NCBI GenBank assembly: GCA_026929865.2
Contig: CM049410.1
Coordinates: 23,616,501-23,680,500, forward strand
Direction of reading: 5' to 3'
Length of the DNA: 64,000 bases
Origin: Hyperoplus lanceolatus
Taxonomy: Eukaryota > Chordata > Actinopteri > Uranoscopiformes > Ammodytidae
The translations under genes and the position numbers were made by a program. Shown here in pieces: positions 4,581-55,527 of the stretch. The notes beneath the pieces were generated by a model. It was not told the DNA's origin. It saw nothing but the letters and a program-made list of their open reading frames with translations, and made no database searches. Positions within the stretch are counted from its first letter, which is position 1. Each line of letters starts with the position of its first letter.

Positions 4581-5025
4581 ATGAGGCTGCAGCCTGCTAA
4601 GGGTTATCACTGCATGATGTCTTGGGGGCAAACAGTCAGCTAATAAGTCCCCCGGTGAAGGAAACAAAGGAAGACAGAGAGCTAGATAAAGTTGGGAGCA
4701 GAGTTTTAACAACCCTTTATTGAGCAATTAAAAAAGTTTCAGTTTTTAGTCCAAAATGACACCTTGCAACAATTTACTACAAGCAACCCCACTGCAATTT
4801 ACACAGAATACAACTTAACCTGCAGTTATATATACAGTAGGGGAAGGTGGGGTGATTTGTGCAACTTTTTACTCAAAGTGATTTTAAAGTGAGGCCTTGA
4901 CAGTTATGTCTCCAACTCAAATATGTACATATATTTCAGGATGTTGTGCATCCCTGGCAATAAAAACTTTGGATCTGGAATAAACTGTTTAAGAAATATA
5001 GCTTTCGGAAAAAAAGTTGTCTTGT

Positions 5026-5061
5026 CGCACAAATCACCCCACGTAGTGGGTGATTTGTGCG
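5026..5061. repeat. Hairpin-forming inverted motif inside element 1
   Basis: Arms of 14 bp (cgcacaaatcaccc and its exact reverse complement) are separated by an 8-base loop. The arms are internal copies of the element's own subterminal sequence arranged head to head, so this may be a protein-binding site of the element rather than a random palindrome. Confidence 0.85.
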
Positions 5062-5224
5062 TCATTGTGTCACAATGACAAAGTCACCATCATCATCTTT
5101 CTGGCCATCTGAACTCTCATCAGTGGTGTCGTTAAGTGGAATTGAGATGTCACTCTCTCCTGAGCTACTGTAGACTATCACTTTCTTTTGGTGACCAGCG
5201 TATACAGCCATGCCACAGCACAAC

Positions 5225-5562
5225 TCTCAGAAATGTACTTTGCACTAGTTGCTCCGTGCTTGTGGAACCAACTGCCACCTGACAAATGTGATTCCCCCTA
5301 CATTTCTGCCTTTAAATCAAGGCTCAAAACCCATATGTACACCCTGGTGTTTCCTCCCCATTAACCTCTGCACTACTTACTTACCTCTGCACTACTATCT
5401 GTGTTTATGTGGATGTATGGGCTTTACGTCTTTTATTTTGGTTATTGTTATTTTACCTTCATTGTTTACCTACTGAATGCACTATGTACAGCACTTTGGA
5501 CAGTGCAAACTGTCATAAATGTGCTTTTATAAATACATTTTACTTACTTACTTACTTACTTA
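5225..5562 (+). mobile_element. 5'-truncated LINE 3' end with (ACTT)n tail
   Basis: The stretch around 5258-5340 reads as a decayed reverse-transcriptase C-terminus with the signature of a short LWNxLP-like block followed by a FKSRLKTH-like block, typical of L2/Rex1-type non-LTR elements. An AT-rich 3' UTR with a cagcactttggacagtg block follows, then an (ACTT)n tail at about 5538-5562. Clade assignment is by resemblance only. Confidence 0.65.
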
Positions 5563-5976
5563 TAACTCACCCAGGCCCTTGCGCACAAATCACCCCATCC
5601 CCAGAATTTTGGATAATAGGCATGATGCAGCAATTTAGGGTTGACATTGTGCTAACTATATAGACTCAAAGTGTAGCATACCAAAGCACTAAAACATGTG
5701 TCAAATGTTTTCAAACGTGTCTATAATTGTTCAGACACAATAATCAAAAAACCTTGATCATGGAAATTTTACTTTGAAAGGCAAAACACAGTTTTTTGAG
5801 CTTAAATGTGCTTATATCTTATTCCTTGTGTCTCCCTTCTTTACAGGATGAGTCAAATGGATGGCTCTTCTTAAATATGTGGTCACATTTCCAATTTCTT
5901 CCACGGTTTTCTAGAAACAAGGGGTTTTGCAACTTCCAAAATGCACAAATCACCCCACCTTCCCCTATATACAGTA

Positions 5977-6770
5977 GGCTATGCGTATTACAATCAATGC
6001 AGGGATCAGGTTTTAATGTTATTAGGTTTCCGTGTGTCATTTTAAATAAAGATTTCAATGTTTATCAATTTTATCAGAATATGTAAAGCCCTTTCCAATG
6101 TATGTTATGCATATTGTTAATATTACTATGTGTTGCTTTTATAAACTGCCTATGTGTATCTTTATTGATACATCACTGGATAACATATTTAAAATGTACA
6201 ATACACACAACTCTTTATATTTAATAAAGAACATAACATTTTGGATACATTTCTTGATATATGCTATTAGAACCTGTCCCCATAACAGAAGTAGAATTCT
6301 AAAGCAAAAAATAAACTGTAGGAAAACTGCTTGACACTGAGCTCCCTAAAAACAGTCTTCCAGCTGTGCAGAGCCAGCATTTCAACGCGGCTATTCCAAT
6401 TACTCCCATAATTGGCTGTCTTTGCCGAGAGAAAGTGACCATATCTCAGGCTTTTCCTCCGTCAGCTTGACGACTCGTAATTAGAGGAGCGAAAGAGTCG
6501 GTTCCTTCAATTAAACAAGAGTGCAGCAGGAATAAAGAGTTCTCTTTTTAATAAAGTAGAAGACTGAAGGAGCAGCAACACAGAAATAGTATTCGCCTCA
6601 ACTGAACGTAGAACATTAATCAATCGGAATAAACGCTGAATCATGAGTATTGCTAAACATTATTGCAGTATGCATGATGAAAACAGATTGGTGAGTATGA
6701 GCACTATATGTTTGTACTGGTAATTATCATACCTTTACCATATATTGTATAGGTTATTGTTGGTTATTTG
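5977..6770. other. Non-genic stretch, no gene seen
   Basis: AT-rich sequence with short chance frames only. Confidence 0.5.
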
Positions 6771-28689: not shown

Positions 28690-29435
28690 AGAACAAGAAA
28701 AAAAATTGACGTTTCCCAAAATGTCAAACTGGTCAGACCATCGAAAGTGCAATCATACAAATACCTTGGGACTATCATTGATGATTTTGAAGCCAACTGT
28801 GAAGGCTGTGTGTATAAAGGGTCACCAGTGTCTGTATTGTCACATTTTCACATTGATCGAACCATCACGGCCATGTTTTATTGTGCTTTTATTGAATCTG
28901 TACTGTCATTTTAACTTGGTCGCATTTCCCTTAATGAAATAGTTAAGTGGTCTAGTCGGCTGTTTGGAGCGTCTCAGCCTTACCCAGCGTCCCTGTACAA
29001 CCAGACAGGTACAGCGGATTGCTCCCTCCATTTTAAATAATGAGTCTCTTTCCCTTGAACAGTGAACTTCAGCTTCTTCCCTTTTTAGACCCAACAGGCA
29101 GAATAAGACGGTACAAACTAGCTTTGTTCCTGCTGCTATGACTGAGTCAAACAAAAGGTAGCAATTTTGGCACATAAACAATGTCATTTATTTTTTTATT
29201 TTTTTGTAACAATATCTACTTGCAGAGGTTATTTTTATGCGTGTTTTAAACATCCTTTTAATAAGATTGGTATGTCTCCCTCTTATTATCTGATTGGTGG
29301 AACATTGAGTACTTTTTTTTATCATGTTTAAGCAGGGTTTCGTTTGATGTTGTAGTTTGTTTGGAGATTGGCTGCGAGAATGTTATATAATCGTCTTGCT
29401 GCAAAATTAATTCACCCTCGGGTATAAATAAAGTT
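28690..29435 (+). mobile_element. Decayed non-LTR retrotransposon (LINE), 3' part
   Basis: With frameshifts and stops, the plus strand reads as the C-terminal part of a LINE reverse transcriptase. Blocks like FYCAFIESVLSF (about 28880-28915), VKWSSRLFGASQ and, further on, a LLPF...GR.RRYK.. segment match the typical fish LINE C-terminus. The sequence ends with a gggtataaataaagtt 3' terminus at about 29420-29435, which runs into a pentanucleotide tail. The clade was not determined. Confidence 0.65.
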
Positions 29436-34089: not shown

Positions 34090-36345
34090 CTTTTTTATGG
34101 TGAAAAACGAAAGGTTTATTCAAAAGACCTTCTTGAGAATAACTTACAGTGTGAAATGTTTCTTTCAGAGAGTGACAAAGGCGCGACTGGGTTTGGGAAG
34201 CGATAATAGTGAAAAGCTAGAGCTGGCGCTTCTGCTAACACACATCCTTTCCCCTAAGTGTCTCTTTCTTTTTACAAATATTGTGTATACTGTAAGTTGC
34301 GTGAACCTAGTAAGTATTGTGTTGCCTGTCTCCCCCACATACTGTAAACCACAGCGTATATATCTGATTAAATATACACAGTTCTTGGAATGGACATTAC
34401 CATTGTCTCTGTGTTGAAAAGCATTATTTTTATAAAGGTTGCACACCTGGGATTGGGGCTGAAAAGCTTCTCTGTGCCATTAAGGTCTCCACCAGTGGTT
34501 TGATTTTAGCTTTAACTAAAGTTTCCTGCAGGATCCTTTTTCTTTCTTAATGCAGCAATAATCCTGTGATCCTGTAAATAGTGAGTCTTGTCTATAAAGT
34601 TGTTGAAATAATTTGTAACCACTCTATCTAATTGTACTGCTGCAGGAGAGTAGGGGAGAACGGGGTAATTTGTCACACGGGTTGGTTGTCACAATCGTTA
34701 TATCTCGGAACCAGAAGGCGCTGTCTATGACATTTTGGTATGTAAATATCCAGAATTGGGATCAGCGGTCACCTACATAGTCTTCCTTGGAGTTAGGCTG
34801 CTGAATTTGAGGTGAGACGACTGTTTGTGTTTTTCATGTCAAATTGAAAATATTTAGCTCCTCAGTATTTTTCTTCTAGGCTTTTACACAATGGGTTTAT
34901 AACAAAACACTTGTTACCCATACAAAGTGTGAAGGGTAAACTATATTTTAGATTGTGGTTAAGCTAATTAGTTGTCAGATGGTTGTTGGCCTTGATGCTA
35001 GCAAGAAATTCAAGTTGGGGTTGGTCGTCACATTTTTTGGGGGGTTGGTTGTCACATGTTATCTCAAGGCTGCAGCCAGAAAAGGAACCCAATAACGAAA
35101 GAAATTGTCAAGCTGTATCCTCACTGACACCCCAGAGAAGGAAAGAATAGAGCAGGAAAAGGCAGCTAGCAAAAAGGGCAACACAATCAAAACAACCCAG
35201 TGCATCCCAAACTAGACCAGCTGCCAAGGCTACAGTGAGTTATGTAGGCCTCTTTTTCAACTTGACAATGCAATTAAACTTTCAAATTTAGTTCTACTTT
35301 CTTGCCTTCTTTTTAAGATTATTCCCATTAAGATAACATTGTGACAAACAACCCCATAGTGTTTGACAACCGACCCCTTGATGTGGTTGGTTGTCACAAT
35401 GTGTAAGGGTGTCTTTGATGATTAATTTCTTCTTTATTACAATGAGATAGAAAGAGTGAGGGGTGCATATTTCAAGCCAACACCTTAAGCTTCAATTTAA
35501 TGTAGGAATGACTATTGAAATATGTTTAGGTGATAAGCAATTCTCACTAGAGTAAAAAGTGTGCCTACTTACCCCGTTCTCCCCTACGTGGTTATGACCG
35601 GAAGCAGAGAGCTGATGACAAGGGGCTTGGTTTGAAAAAAGACCTTGAGTAGACTACCCTCTAGTGGACAAAGTCAAAAACAGCACCCATTGTGGGCTTA
35701 TTGAAGTCTTCCTGTCTAGTGCAAAATCTGTGAAACCTGAGCAGCTGTGAGTAGGCCTACATAAGTGTTTTAGGGTGAAAGCTAAACTTTAACAACAGAG
35801 CATGAGTATCTGTATCCTTAAAGCACATCTTGATATCCAGTTTAATACTCTACTTTCAAACTCAGGAGCCTTGAATGTGGACGTATCCAGAGAGTCAACA
35901 GAAATACAATTAAAATTGGATTTGACCTTAATGGATGCATTATGGTTGTTAAGAGTGATTCTAAATTGATCAAATTCCTCCCTCTCGAGTGTGGCAAAAT
36001 TCCTCAGATGTCGTCTAAGAACCTGAAATAATGTATGTATTTCTCTTCTTTGGAGCTAGAGGCCGGGGCAGTTGTCTTCCACTGTGCCATGAATATGTTA
36101 GCATAGGCCGCAAAAATGTCTTGCCCATCGCCGTTCCCTTGATTCATAAAAATAATTCCCCATTAAATTTGAGGTCAATTAGTAAGATTGATTAACACAG
36201 TACTTGTAAAAGCTTGTTGTCAGGCCATTTATTGTCAGTATATTTATGGATTGGATTTTTCATGGCTTGAAGCCCTTCTGTAATATCTATGTTTGTATAA
36301 ATACTATGTCAATGGTGATAAAAATGATCCTACAAGAATCTAAAA
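34090..36345 (-). mobile_element. Decayed Penelope-like retroelement (RT plus GIY-YIG), split by element 2
   Basis: On the minus strand two diagnostic parts occur in the right order. First comes a reverse-transcriptase segment (about 36340 down to 35830): a FITIDIV...T.I block, then GTAMGK, AYANIFMAQWE and YFRFLDDI, with stops and frame changes. A stretch like FKDTDTHALL at about 35810 continues it. Further down, at 34165-34446, a 93-codon frame carries NCVYLI..I.CGLQYVGETGN, which matches the GIY-YIG endonuclease of Penelope-like elements. Reverse transcription from an EN-nicked chromosomal site is the family's known mechanism. The 936-bp element 2 sits between the two parts. The RT start is missing, frames are broken, and the copy is surely inactive. 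Confidence 0.82.
34651..35586. mobile_element. 936-bp inverted-repeat DNA element, TAGGGGA type (element 2)
   Basis: The ends are a perfect 18-bp inverted repeat, taggggagaacggggtaa at the left and its complement at the right. The flanks share only TA with the termini, suggesting a TA target. Inside, the subterminal motif GGTTGGTTGTCACA and variants recur at about 34680, 35023, 35044 and 35388, and inverted at about 35342 and 35362. There is no transposase frame. End layout matches element 1 at 4838-5967 (TAGGGGA, then GGGGT, then ATTTGT). It interrupts a Penelope-like element and is therefore the younger insertion. Confidence 0.82.
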
Positions 36346-38010: not shown

Positions 38011-38432
38011 AATGACTCGTCCAGAGCTCTCAGGTCGTCTGGGACAGGCCTACTTGAAGTCCCCAGAGTTAGGACTAAAGGAGAAGGAGAAGCAGCTTTC
38101 AGTTTTTACGCACCAAATATATATGGAAAAAACTCCCAGAAAACTTGAGGTCTGCTGCAACTCTCAGCTCTTTTAAATTAAGTCTGAAGACTTTTCTATT
38201 TCCCATTTAACCGGTCATTTTTATTTTATTTTAATGTCTTATTTCTTATAATTTTTTTGTTTTTTACTTTTTTTTATTCACTTTTTTCTTATGTGTATTC
38301 TATGCTTGATGTATTTTAATCTTGATGTATTTCATGACCCTGTGAAACAGTTTGGGTGGCCATAATTGTGTCTGATTGGTGCTATATAACTAACCTTGCC
38401 TTGCCTTGCCTTGCCTTGCCTTGCCTTGCCTT
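38011..38432 (+). mobile_element. LINE 3' end with (CCTTG)n tail
   Basis: The first part reads as a decayed L2/CR1-like C-terminus (a KEKQLSVF block, then an SSF-K-SLKTFLF-like stretch around 38165-38200). An AT-rich 3' UTR and the words gtgctatataactaa follow, a typical LINE ending, then about seven copies of CCTTG at 38394-38432. Confidence 0.65.
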
Positions 38433-47289: not shown

Positions 47290-47888
47290 TTAAGGCCAGG
47301 ACACACCAGTCCAACTACCGACCGTCGCCCGAAAATGGAGTCTGCCGTTTCAGGCAGCTCCAGTCTCCTCGTCGCGGCTAAAAAAGTGCCAAGAACACAC
47401 CGAGCCGACTACTGACTTTCCGTACACTCTGCGCTTGTGCAGGATTTAATGTCTCCATAACAGCAGGCGGCACTAATCTGTATTGTGGCCCAAAAAATAT
47501 GGAAAGCGGAAATGATGGGACAGCTGTCTAGTCCATAAACATAGATATAAATAAGTATTTGTGTGTCGAGCAGTCAATTCAAGGGTTGATGCATGTGAGT
47601 ACTCGCTGAACGAAACAAATAAACACATTAAAACAATGGCTAGCGATGCGATACTGTTGTCAGCCGTTTGTGCTACCCGCCTCACTTCCGGGCTTCACTG
47701 ATTCGCTCGCCCTCCACCAATCAAATTGCTCCAACTGAAAGACTGCCCGACGTGTTCAATCGGCGGAAAAGAAGCCCGACGACATCCGACGTCACCGAAC
47801 ACACCAAACAGATTCGTGTCCCCGCCCCCTCCAGACTCTCCGACCATGTCCGATGGCCGATTATCAGGCCGGTGTGTCCTGGCCTTTA
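47290..47888. mobile_element. 593-bp inverted-repeat element with AGGCCAGGACACACC ends
   Basis: The outer 15 bases (aggccaggacacacc) are perfectly inverted at the two ends (47293 onward and ending at 47885). The flanks are TTA on both sides, extendable to TTAA. A TTA duplication would suit PIF/Harbinger; a TTAA duplication would suit piggyBac or Kolobok. The interior is GC-rich, with many CGAC/GTCG words, and has no convincing transposase. Confidence 0.8.
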
Positions 47889-50165: not shown

Positions 50166-51124
50166 ACTGAGAGGTCATTGGTCTGGTCATACAACACAGA
50201 CTGTGTCTGAGTGTTAAGAGTCCTATAATTACATACATAGCACTCTGAGTTGAGCAGTGTGGGTGCATGCACTCGTTCTCCCGCCCAATCTTAAGGTGAT
50301 AAATGGTGAATGCCATGCCTTGTGTTGCAGTATGAGAAATGTCCCTAGATACCCTGAAGTAATATAAGAAGTGTTGCTCTTCAGTGTTTAACAAGCACAT
50401 ATTTGTGGGAAAGAAGTCTACAAAATTTCACAAGATTTTTCCCGTGCCACAAAAGCTTGATATAGTAGTCAGACAGGTTGTAGAAATTACTCTATACAAA
50501 AAGTTGGCAAAAAATGGGTTTGCAAAAATATTCAGAATGCAATCGGAAGAAGAAATAATCAAGGTTTCCTTTTTAGGATTGGAAAACCAAATTAAAAGCG
50601 AAGGGTATTTTTCATGGGAATAATTGTTACTATGGTATTCTCCCTGTTGTGAAATGCAAAGGAATCAACTAAATACAAATATTTTCTTTCCAACACTGCA
50701 AGTAGTGGCTTTGGATACCTCTGAATGAACTCTTACCTTCATTTTGGAGCTACATTCTATATGCCTCTCCTTCAGGGACCTCCACTTACCTATCCACTAC
50801 ATCTCAATGTGTATCACATTGCAGTTGTTGGTTTTTGTAACATGAACCCCGCGTTGGATGCCCTGACTCTAACTCTGACCTCAATCCACCCTTTGTGCTC
50901 TTCTGAGCAGTGACAAGGAAACATTCACATACTGTAGAACATATACATTTACACACACACACAAACACACACACTGCGGCTGGCAGCATATGCAAACAAA
51001 AATATGTGTTCAACCTAATGTGTTTTTGTTTTTATTTCATTTTGTTTTTGAAATATAATACTTTAGACCTACATTTATGTTGAAAAAAATGTTAAAGACT
51101 TGTTATTTTTCTTTCCATCTACAG

Positions 51125-52702
51125 CACTGAAGAGATCCTTCGACATTGAAGATGTGGACGACATACCATCATCCTTCTCCACAGCTTCCCCCGTCTCTAA
51201 CCCTGTGTCTCCGTCCGCGTCCCATTTCTTCCTGAACCACAACAAAGCCGGCGAGGTGCGTGTAGGAGGAGACCAGTCCCCTTCACTGGCCTTCAACAAC
51301 AACAACAACAACAGCCTGAGCCCTGGAGCCCACCACGCCCGCATCAGCCTGAGCGCCAACCCCAGCCCGGTGTTTAAGTCCCGTAACGTAGTCAGTAGCA
51401 TGTCCTTCAACCGAGGGACCATGAACAAGCCGACCATCCACAGCAATGGTTCATCCGTGACCAGAGCGGCTTCCTTCCAGAGCAGGTTAAACAGTTACTC
51501 CATGCTATCCGGGCCAGGCAGTGACAACGACAGCCTTCACAGCTCCACATCCAGCCTGGAGTACCCTGGGGTGGTTGGATGTGCCCTCCCTCCTACTAAG
51601 CTGGGGTCATATCCCAGCCCTCTACTTCAGGGGGAATACCTCAGAACCCAGCCCCAGCTTCCACAGCAACACCCAGAGAGAGGTGCCAACTTGGGAAGCA
51701 ACCCACCCCTGAAGAAGTTCTCCTCCCATGGGAGTGTTTTCCCCCCTGAGATGGATCACAGTTCAGGCATAATGCTGGGTGTTCCCGAGCCTCGAAGGGT
51801 GAACCATGGCTCCATGTCCAACGTAGACCTCCAGATTCACGATGGAGGAGGAGGAGGAGGAATGGGGGGTATGCAAAGGGGAGGCAGTGCAGGTATGATA
51901 TCTCCAGGGCTGAGGTATGCCAATGCCAACTGGAATGGTCATGTTCATAATGCCAGTTCTTATGGGGAGGAGGGCTACTATAGCTCCAAGAAAAATGGCC
52001 ATCAGCAAGTTCCCGAGATCCTCAAGCCTCCCCAGCCCAAGCCCAAAGAGACTCCACGTCTCAACAAGTTTCCCTTGGATCTGGATAGCTTGGTGAGCAG
52101 CACCTCAACCACTTCCCCCACCAAGGCTCAAGGAGGATCCATGAACCGTAGTCCCCCCAAGCCTCCTACAAGGAGCACAGCAGGCCTCCAACAGCACACA
52201 AGCTCACCGTCCAGCTCGGCCAGCCCTTCAGCCTCTCTCAGTAGCCTGGACAGCTCCTCTGACACCCCACCCATCTCCCTCCATCATCCCTTCTTGCCAT
52301 TGTCCTCATGTTCTCCGACTCCCTCACATGGCCCCATCCCTGTCCCAGAAATTAGTTGGCCCATTTCTCCAGCCCAGAGCCCACGGCTGGAGATTCTCTC
52401 AGGGTCCCAAGTTGCCCAGGTGTTCCCCAACCTGCCTACCCCTTACAGCCCATCCAACAGTGCCTCCAACTCCAGAGCCATGCGGTCTGTGGAGGTTGGT
52501 GTAGGTGAAGCCAGAGATAGTGTAGGCTCAATCTTACAGAGGATTGCTTCATTCTCCCGGGATGCTGTCACTGACATCACCCCAGATGTTGTGATGCAGT
52601 GCCCTGAAGTCCAAACCAATGGCGGGCCATCATCCAAATTTGGTCGTCCGGCTGAGACCACACCCGTTACCCCACGGAAGCTGGGGAAGAAGACACAAGA
52701 AG
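51125..52702 (+). CDS. Large second coding exon of an unidentified Ser/Pro-rich protein
   Basis: The exon opens after CTACAG and closes before GTAAGA; both junctions are phase 1 and its length (1578) is a multiple of three. It completes codon 19 and encodes residues 20-544. Residues 20-32 are acidic (SFDIEDVDD). The rest is low-complexity: six Asn at 76-81, six Gly at 259-264, Pro/Lys-rich KPPQPKPKETP at about 319-329, a possible SH3-binding RSPPKPPTR at about 360-368, many SP/TP sites and a Ser-rich block at about 370-400. A more ordered-looking GSILQRIASFSRDAV lies near 486-500. There is no signal peptide, membrane segment or catalytic motif. A cytoplasmic or cytoskeletal scaffold is a plausible reading, but that is inference; the family is not recognised. 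Reading past the donor meets a stop at 52729-52731. Confidence 0.92.
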
Positions 52703-55527
52703 GTAAGATGTTCAAGATGTCTTTTTCATAATGTATAACCACATAAGATTGCATTTCTCCATGTCTGGAGTGGGCTTCATGAATGTTAGTGTAGCTCACT
52801 TGGTTGTGCTTGTGGCTACCCGCATTTCGCTCTTTGTGTGTCTTTGGTACCTCGTCAGTATCTGCATGTTGTAAGCCTCGCAACTCTCTGGTGTCCAAGT
52901 CCTGCAGTATTTATAGTGCCGAACATAAATGTAGCATCATTTAAAACGGTTTTTCCTATCCACATAATCCAGGCAGCATTTATGTTCAACCTCAAAACGT
53001 TATAAAGAAAACAATTTGGTAATCTATAGACGTTATTTCTGTGAGACAGGGTCCACATTACACCATAATGGATGACGGTATCTGACAATCATTCTTGAGT
53101 TGATTCTCCAATGGTTACAGTATTTACATTAATGTTATTATCCTTGCACATTGCTGGTTTGAAATGCTGCAAATAGAAAGCATCCATCTGTCGTCACAGG
53201 AAGCAGGAAGTTCTGGAACCTGGAAATTCTGACAAAAACATTCAAAAGTTGGCGTAGCAAAACATGGAAAACACATGTCACCTAACAGTGTGACCTGGTT
53301 TGTGTGTGTACAAAGGTCTGTTGAACAAATGGTGACAGAGAACTTCCTTCTGTTTTCATGTAGTGTAGAAGACAAGTGAAGGTTAGCAGATGATCTGAGC
53401 AGCCACACCCATTGTTTCCTTTTTCACTGAGCTTGAACACGTGCACAGATAATACAATACACACACCAACGTAGATATACATATTTTTAGTCCACCTCCT
53501 CCCAGATAGATTTGGCTCCTACTTCCTCCGCAACATTCACTGAAAACCTTCTAAAATGATTACCAATCTTTTATTATCAAGAAATGTTTAAAACTAAAAC
53601 TAGAAGCTTGTGAACAAATATGAGGCATATGCTTTTGGGCCCTGTGTTCAGATTTTCCAGTTCTCTCCTTAAATCTCATTAGGGAATTAGTCTAATTCCT
53701 CTGAGATGAAAGAGAGATAACAGATGGATCCAACTGTAATCAATTCATAAGACAACTCTCACTCCCCTGAAAGCTGACAAGAGAGTTAAACAAAACCTGT
53801 GTGCATTTCAGTGGTATTTAACAAGGATGGTCATTCAAAGATTGAGGGAATTTTTAATAACATTATTTAAGTTGAATCTTTGGCAACAGTTTAAGCATAG
53901 CCCATGAAAAAAATCACACTGACCATCGGTGTTCACGTTGTAAACAACAGGCAGGATGTTCGTGCTGACCTAATTATTTTGCTCTATCCAGATAATTTCC
54001 CATAAAAAGAAATGAAAACAACAGCAAACTAAAAAAAAAAGGCCCGGGGCATGTTCCTCTACTTCCTATCCTCTGCTCCTCATTAAGACAGTAGAGGAAA
54101 GCAATGCATACAAATACTTGTTTTTGTACCGAAGTGTTCTAAAGTATAAAATAATGTGTTGATCTGGTCCGTAAGTAATGAAACTGAAGAAACCCAATCC
54201 ATCATCTAATTGCAGTCGACAGCAATTATCAGCATGAGCTAAATAAAGATCAGTATTGTTCTCTGTGTTCCCCCCTTCACCCCGAAGATTCCCTTTCCAT
54301 ATATCTCGCCCCATCTCCACCCACCTGTGGGAAATGCTCTTATCTTCCATTTTCCCACATATCTTTGCTTTATCAGCTCTGCATTCCTTTCTACCTCTTT
54401 CCCTCATTCTCATTATTCTATAAGCATGACTATCCAACAGCCACCATGCTGAAAACCCAGTGTCCAAACACCACGGACAAGCACTATCATTGTCTAGAAT
54501 GGATTTATGCAGTTCCTTTTTCCTTGTTTTTGATAATTCTTTCTTTTCTAACTTGGTCTTTTTCACTCTTTAGCTACATGCCCAGGCTTGTCAGACCTCC
54601 CCCTCCTAATCTCTCTCTCTTTCTGATTCAAGTTTTAATGACAGTCATTTAAGGGATAGATTCCTCCCCAGCAGATGTCTAAACCATCCTCACTTTATAT
54701 AATGAAAGGTATAAAAGCTATATCCAGATATATTAAAGGGGGTATACAAGGGTTATGATAGGTAGACCAATGGGAACATTCAAACTGTAAGTGGTATTTT
54801 GAAGGGTTTCTAAGAAGGTTACACCTCTGGTTTCTTACTCAAAGTGAACATCATATAGATGTCAATTAATGTTAGACATCAATTAATATCTAGGTCACAA
54901 GCTGGAGGACTCAGGAGTAAGGTGGATTTGGCGTGACATTGTCAAGAGACATTGGTGTGCACAAATAGGCGATCCTTATTGTTTTGAGCTTCATAATTGT
55001 CATGTTGGACACCTGCTTAAGTTTTGACATGTTGAATTCCAGCAGTGTTCGATGGTTACAGTATTACTTGCAGAATTTGGTCGGCATCCGTGGAATATTA
55101 AGGACCCTGGACAGGACAAAGAATTAACCCCAAAAGCTGACAACAACAGCTGACATTCACAGTTTATAGGCCATCCTCAATAAGTCAGTGGACGGCCAGA
55201 GAGAGATCAAGAACATTTACATTTTGTTCATTCAAGAAGGAACAGGAAAAGCTCAGTGCTATTATTGTATTGTTGTGTGTGCAAACTTCCACAGTCAGGA
55301 AAGTGGATCAATTCAAATAGAGCCAATCAGATCTTTGCACAAAGGAACCGCCTCTCTCTCTCTCTACTGTTTGTTGCTGTATCAGTGCGGTAGGTTGTCC
55401 TTTCCATTAGCTCAGATTAGAACCCCGTTTCCTCTCCAGTTGTTTGAGTCAAGGCCCCAAAATGTGTTTCCTGCACCAAATAAGATTAGCTCATCCTGTC
55501 TGTTCAGGGTTGTTATATAAACACAAT

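Follow-up and report, generated by a model that had tools for sequence, protein, structure and literature searches.

An internally deleted pogo-superfamily transposon with an iterated internal motif in Hyperoplus lanceolatus, and a seemingly related family with two end types

The 936-bp element 2, at 34651..35586 on the plus strand of the window (the whole stretch of 64,000 nucleotides analysed), is almost certainly an internally deleted, non-autonomous transposon of the pogo superfamily (IS630-Tc1-mariner group), which would have been moved by cut-and-paste into TA by the transposase of a full-length relative. The placement in this superfamily follows from a coding relative that has identical ends and a DDE_1 domain, and from the duplication of TA. 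The end sequence, TAGGGGAGAACGGGGTAA, is perfect over 18 bp in the left (34651..34668, plus strand) and right (35569..35586, minus strand) terminal inverted repeats, which pair with each other; one flanking base pairs too, and complementarity between the two arms is 90% over a span of 29 nt (34650-34678 at the left end). Perfect inverted pairs did not exceed 17 bp in any of 20 random first-order sequences as long as the window, and the position and perfect 18-bp inverted ends reported in the initial annotation are exact. Inverted ends of this size are within the 40 bp given for pogo elements (type 1) in the accessible part of PMC7386202. The element is bordered by TA at 34651..34652 and at 35585..35586, the two copies of a 2-bp target-site duplication; no longer duplication is present at element 2, and a sister copy has an empty site with a single TA.

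The coding partner that the initial annotation had proposed to look for was found in the host genome (807 Mb, 527 contigs). Low CpG and plentiful CA repeats give a teleost-like impression. Among its 23 matches to DDE_1 (PF03184), one, L023 (within L046, contig C21), is bounded by the ends of element 2 and measures 2,679 bp. Its open frame of 473 residues matches PF03184 with an E value of 1.5e-20, covering 4-177 of 177, and has 35 residues between the second and third catalytic aspartates, as in the DD35D spacing of the Passer family. Approximately the whole of element 2 is collinear with this copy in three blocks, 1-409 (87% identical), 409-583 (87%) and 588-936 (90%), the missing parts being L023 760-2173 and 2360-2676, which amount to two internal deletions. 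As the L023 frame lies at 733-2151 and the first deletion covers 760-2173, nearly the whole transposase frame is gone from element 2. Between the two deletion junctions a short piece of the transposase's tail-coding region survives (35059..35233, plus strand), which is 87% identical to L023 2174-2359 and reads ILTDTPEKERIEQEKAAS, the same as in L023; such tails we take to be pogo-like. A full-length pogo element would have lost nearly all of its transposase frame while both ends, the subterminal repeats and the tail-coding scrap stayed, and the shortened element would have inserted by cut-and-paste at TA, with duplication of the TA, using transposase presumably supplied in trans by a full-length relative. 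Non-autonomous (MITE-like) pogo and Tigger derivatives have a transposase gene deleted internally, kept ends and a high copy number. Element 2 resembles them in its internal deletion, retained ends and many copies, but differs in retaining an internal array of a motif derived from its ends.

In a protein search with the L023 transposase, which gave 39 matches out of 52 candidates, L023 alone matched the full query with no stop; the runner-up is 74% identical with seven stops, and the remaining matches are 24-61% identical and shorter or broken, a distant one on contig C13 (28%) also having an open frame. The C21 copy is 10-13% different from element 2 and is not necessarily the one that mobilised it. 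Its tail sequence runs on in a second reading frame, possibly on account of an intron or a frameshift. Members of the pogo superfamily have an N-terminal helix-turn-helix of psq or CENP-B type; the Pfam match of L023 in this region is weak (HTH_psq, E 0.2), and the related L026 frame matches HTH_psq (4.6e-4) and HTH_Tnp_Tc5 (1.8e-4), both slightly below the curated cut-off. Within the window itself Pfam detected no transposase in nine peptides from the two elements 1 and 2, 20 of the 72 frames that passed the complexity filter or three further frames, and Rfam gave no match at the gathering score. Among viral contigs, an exact 16-mer is present in nine stretches (L001-L009), the gapped end pattern has no occurrence, and tblastn returned no relative for two peptides. 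The motif strings and LTDTPEK-like peptide strings were absent from the open-access full text searched, a search that lies outside the repeat databases.

The motif that was said to be repeated some six times in both orientations inside element 2 is indeed so disposed: at up to 2 mismatches GGTTGGTTGTCACA occurs six times (three exact, two with one mismatch and one with two), four on the plus and two on the minus strand. The exact copies are at 34680..34693, 35043..35056 and 35385..35398, all on the plus strand; those with one mismatch are at 35019..35032 (plus) and 35340..35353 (minus), and the one with two mismatches is at 35362..35375 (minus). Versions of the motif are also part of the ends, GGGGTAATTTGTCACA within the left end (34662..34677, plus strand) and the degenerate GGGGTAAGTAGGCACA within the right end (35560..35575, minus strand). 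The best-repeated 14-mer of element 2 has six copies, compared with three in the ten highest of 100 shuffles, and only two other 936-bp tiles of the window hold at least six copies of a 14-mer (24 at 29017 and six at 38377), both of which are short tandem repeats. Over the whole window, GGTTGGTTGTCACA is found 13 times at up to 3 mismatches, not above the chance mean of 11.4: the signal resides in close, clustered matches and not in the window-wide count. Preceded by GGGG, the motif reads GGGGTTGGTTGTCACA and is a variant of the left end's inner half, GGGGTAATTTGTCACA, from which it differs at three positions. The iterated motif, a reworked inner half of the terminal repeat, most likely provides the sites at which the N-terminal DNA-binding domain of the transposase binds.

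Copies of element 2 are numerous. Its left-end sequence at up to 2 mismatches has 7,300 places in the genome (3,606 + 3,694) against 3 for the backwards pattern, and a DNA search with the whole element gave 2,744 candidates at first look; the 40 best of these, element 2 itself included, were scored and are 96-100% identical over 923-936 of the 936 bp. Eight loci were excised: L015 has the left end alone, and the other seven are complete at both ends, as elements measuring 510-950 bp. We have aligned 11 copies (element 2, L010-L014, L016 and L062-L065), leaving out L015, with its one end, and L017, with 510 bp. In this alignment 7 of the 84 internal motif columns vary, versus 161 of the 798 other columns (p 0.008), and the right-end columns are likewise conserved, with 1 of 27 varying against the same 161 of 798 (p 0.044); conservation of the left end was excluded as evidence, as six of the 11 copies had been selected by an exact left-end match and are biased in this respect. 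Element 2 departs from the coding element at 7 of 138 positions within motif and end sites and at 90 of 798 elsewhere (p 0.024). This low variation at the motif sites fits sites retained through use; descent from few sources could also reduce variation.

In an alternative reading the array is a by-product, for example a hairpin-prone sequence or a replication or silencing signal, with a conservation merely inherited from few source copies. Few sources could indeed underlie many copies, and hairpins are possible between some motif pairs (35336-35402). We nevertheless regard this explanation as unlikely, given that within the element-2 family the motif columns vary less than the remainder, that changed iterated motifs are seen in four of the five other pogo loci scanned (a count with no chance control), and that the two types of the element-1 family differ strongly at four of the five motif sites, the two ends among them, while the remainder does not.

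The survey of other pogo loci covered the five DDE_1 loci besides L046 that were scanned with a custom flexible pattern; there was no chance control, and these are old copies whose borders are approximate. Iterated motif versions were present in four of them: GGGACAGTTGTAACA twice and GGGATGGTTGTAACA in L056, GGGTAGAGTTGTAACA and GGGTATGGTTGTAACA in L058, GGGTAATCTGGGACA twice and GGGTAATGTGGTACA in L049, and GGGGGCAATTGTAACA twice in L060. In L053 the flexible pattern detected no iterated motif of this kind, and an 18-bp inverted pair, CTAATCTGGGACAGTCAT, flanks the transposase region. The best stretches of these loci are 55% (L056), 54% (L058), 47% (L060), 35% (L049) and 33% (L053) identical to the L023 transposase. 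From the diverging motifs we infer a diverging recognition sequence of the transposases. The suggestion of a family of common design whose recognition sequence has diverged finds support in the four of five loci with a motif of their own, with the same lack of a chance control, and in two discrete types among the listed ends of the element-1 family. Element 2 is ordinary in kind; the set that surrounds it looks like a natural record of changing transposase recognition sequences.

Element 1 (4838..5967, plus strand) represents a related non-autonomous family and has perfect 26-bp inverted ends of type A, together with an iterated GGGTGATTTGTGC. The two elements are of the same design, inverted ends plus an iterated motif, as the initial annotation had stated; of the end blocks that it considered common to both, ATTTGT is common to element 1 and the left end alone of element 2, the right end of element 2 having GGGGTAAGTAGGCACAC. 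The ends themselves are not chance occurrences: besides the 7,300 places of the element-2 left end, the left-end pattern of the element-1 family, TAGGGGA(12 free)TTGTGCAACTTTT, has 2,751 places in the genome and the right-end pattern, TAGGGGA(12 free)TTGTGCATTTTGG, has 2,402, with 0 for either pattern backwards. As for the interiors, described as unrelated, no convincing alignment was obtained, yet ACTTTTTACTC is common to the left end of element 1 and the right end of element 2, just inside each. An in-register match of this kind arose in 138 of 200,000 random draws (for one of four end pairs tested), while under free local alignment 76 of 1,000 shuffles score as high as the ACTTTTTACTC stretches.

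The case for a common descent of elements 1 and 2 would be founded on their ends, and it is rather improbable that they are unrelated lineages whose end likeness arose by convergence. In favour of convergence, the interior alignment is matched by 199 of 200 shuffles in forward and 11 of 200 in reverse orientation, and no element-1 transposase came to light at 22 of the 23 DDE_1 matches, inspected over regions of 9 kb. What weighs against it is that the outer bases agree at 13 of 18, equalled at 33 of 127,964 window positions, that ACTTTTTACTC is in register inside one end pair, and that both elements are TA-bordered and iterate the inner half of their end. The coding partner was obtained for element 2, in the form of its DDE_1 relative, and not for element 1 at any of the 23 DDE_1 matches: no transposase lies between element-1 ends in the 9-kb regions at 22 of them or within some 1.5 kb to either side of the remaining one. 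L049, L059/L066 and L060 do no more than carry element-1-family copies in the vicinity.

Within the element-1 family the ends diverge sharply while the remainder stays near-constant. The two patterns given above fix the outer seven and the inner bases, such that other types could escape them, and the typing was done by eye on the first 100 left and the first 100 right ends listed, all on contig C1. Type A, TAGGGGAAGGTGGGGTGATTTG, which is that of the window, accounts for 64 left and 68 right ends, and type B, TAGGGGAGAGTGGCCTAAGTTG, for 36 and 32; single-base variants are present among these 200 ends, and intermediates are not. For 74 of the 100 listed left ends a partner is found 400-3,500 bp away, giving 55 A/A, 19 B/B and no mixed pairs, an unmixed pairing that was equalled in 0 of 100,000 shuffles; the remaining 26 left ends have no listed partner.

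Complete copies of type A (element 1 and L068) and type B (L060 and L067) were compared site by site. Between types, 27 of 106 motif and end positions (25.5%) differ in each of the four comparisons, versus 33 of 998 or 41 of 1,004 in the remainder (3-4%; p 9e-14 and 3e-12). Between the two B copies the classes are alike, with 5 of 106 at the sites and 32 of 993 in the remainder (p 0.39), and between the two A copies the differences are 0 of 106 and 2 of 1,020. Other alignments of element 1 with L060 give a like pattern (sites 20/80 versus 47/1,030, and 24/100 versus 43/1,010). L049, whose right end is lost, which alone amounts to 11 site differences, was excluded, as was L066, in which the left part is missing and the alignment at the left end takes in a non-homologous stretch; uncorrected, L066 differs from type B, too, at 12 of 44 site positions (p 0.0002-0.0003). 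Four of the five motif sites are changed between the types, and the fifth (5582-5597) bears the A sequence in both. The likeness among sites is 11.2-11.6 of 15 within B, approximately that of the same site compared from A to B (11.4-11.6 of 15), and 14.0 of 15 within A. Only A being homogeneous, and the B sites being as unlike each other as A is from B, strict concerted evolution is disfavoured. Homogenisation is seen in type A, which departs from B chiefly at the motif sites, and possible routes to it are conversion from an internal site or selection on the ends.

We tentatively propose, with somewhat less than even confidence, that a non-autonomous element can draw on its subterminal motif copies, as on a reservoir, to rewrite both ends jointly and switch transposase, type A having arisen from a more diverse B and then undergone a burst, and sister families, element 2 included, being earlier outcomes of the same process. 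The conversion would have concerned four of the five motif sites, the one internal site of B that already has the A sequence being a possible donor, and the burst would have followed it, type A being near-uniform in the two complete copies compared. What becomes testable with this set is whether parasites of transposases switch enzyme through a joint rewriting of repeated binding sites.

Two further stretches of element 1 were noted. At 5164-5561 there is a peptide with LWNQLPPDKCDSPYISAFKSRLKTH and a TTAC tail, apparently a LINE 3' end, through which L049, L060, L067 and L068 align; it seems to have been co-carried during amplification. On the minus strand, a 54-residue frame (5062-5226, VIVYSSSGESDISIPLNDTTDESSDGQKDDDGDFVIVTQ) has no Pfam match and no relative among the viral contigs, and to our eye resembles pogo transposase tails.

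In respect to the target site, no repeat beyond TA is found at the borders of eight of ten elements, the exceptions being L014 (3 bp) and element 1 (7 bp outside TA); of four additional copies, all but L062 are flanked by TA on either side, and L062 has TC at one of its borders. One copy of element 2, L012, is nested in a copy of the window's element 3 (47292-47886), and its two flanks, once brought together over one TA, align continuously with the intact element 3 of the window, where the TA corresponding to the empty site is at 47600..47601. This one empty site, which is that of a sister copy, shows a TA duplication and counts against the 8-bp duplication of hAT, the TWA of Harbinger and the AT of ISL2EU; indeed, neither an 8-bp nor an AT or TWA duplication was seen at the borders and empty site examined. 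Element 1 is bordered by a 13-bp direct repeat, TATATACAGTAGG (4829-4841 and 5966-5978), which is longer than TA; by eye, L060, L067 and L068 show no such repeat. The right flanks of element 1 and of these three loci all start with TAT, perhaps as a target preference.

TAGGGG ends and subterminal repeats suit hAT too. An origin of element 2 in another superfamily, be it hAT (TAGGG ends, 8-bp duplication), PIF/Harbinger (TWA), ISL2EU (AT), P or MULE, can draw on the 7-bp repeat outside the TA of element 1 (11 bp if TA is counted) and on ISL2EU ends, which usually start with GG in the accessible parts of PMC4482050 and PMC9179366, but is very improbable in view of the TA empty site of the sister copy, the eight of ten borders with no repeat beyond TA, the DDE_1 relative with the same ends and, by eye, the flanks of L060, L067 and L068 in the element-1 family, which have no long repeat. 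Duplication length and the DDE_1 partner led us to discard hAT, ISL2EU, PIF/Harbinger and P. Among the known systems closest to element 2 is the Passer family, also of the pogo superfamily, which the available portions of PMC9976928 and PMC7386202 describe with TA duplication, short inverted ends, DD35D and occurrence in ray-finned fish, as for element 2 and L023; the likeness to L023 is one of described features, and iterated subterminal motifs are unmentioned in those portions. The zebrafish P-element-like Pdre2, from what is accessible of PMC10983969, shares with element 2 terminal and subterminal inverted repeats and a fish host but has an 8-bp duplication, a THAP9-type transposase and another end sequence. 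ISL2EU and PIF-Harbinger elements, in the parts of PMC4482050 and PMC9179366 just mentioned, have ends often starting with G and animal hosts including fish, as element 2 does, and differ in their AT or TWA duplication and in their transposase.

Element 3 of the window has ends AGGCCAGGACACACC, TTA on both sides and an inner repeat GAACACACC(G/A)A, and would be PIF/Harbinger-like, as judged from its TTA duplication. At 51100-52731 a serine-rich open frame of 543 residues, perhaps a large host exon, has no Pfam match and no convincing solved relative. Elsewhere in the host genome, three DDE_1 loci (L041, L043 and L045) have common inverted ends around CGTATTGGTCCGAATATA (18-27 bp) and appear to represent another pogo-like element of about 1.4-1.9 kb.
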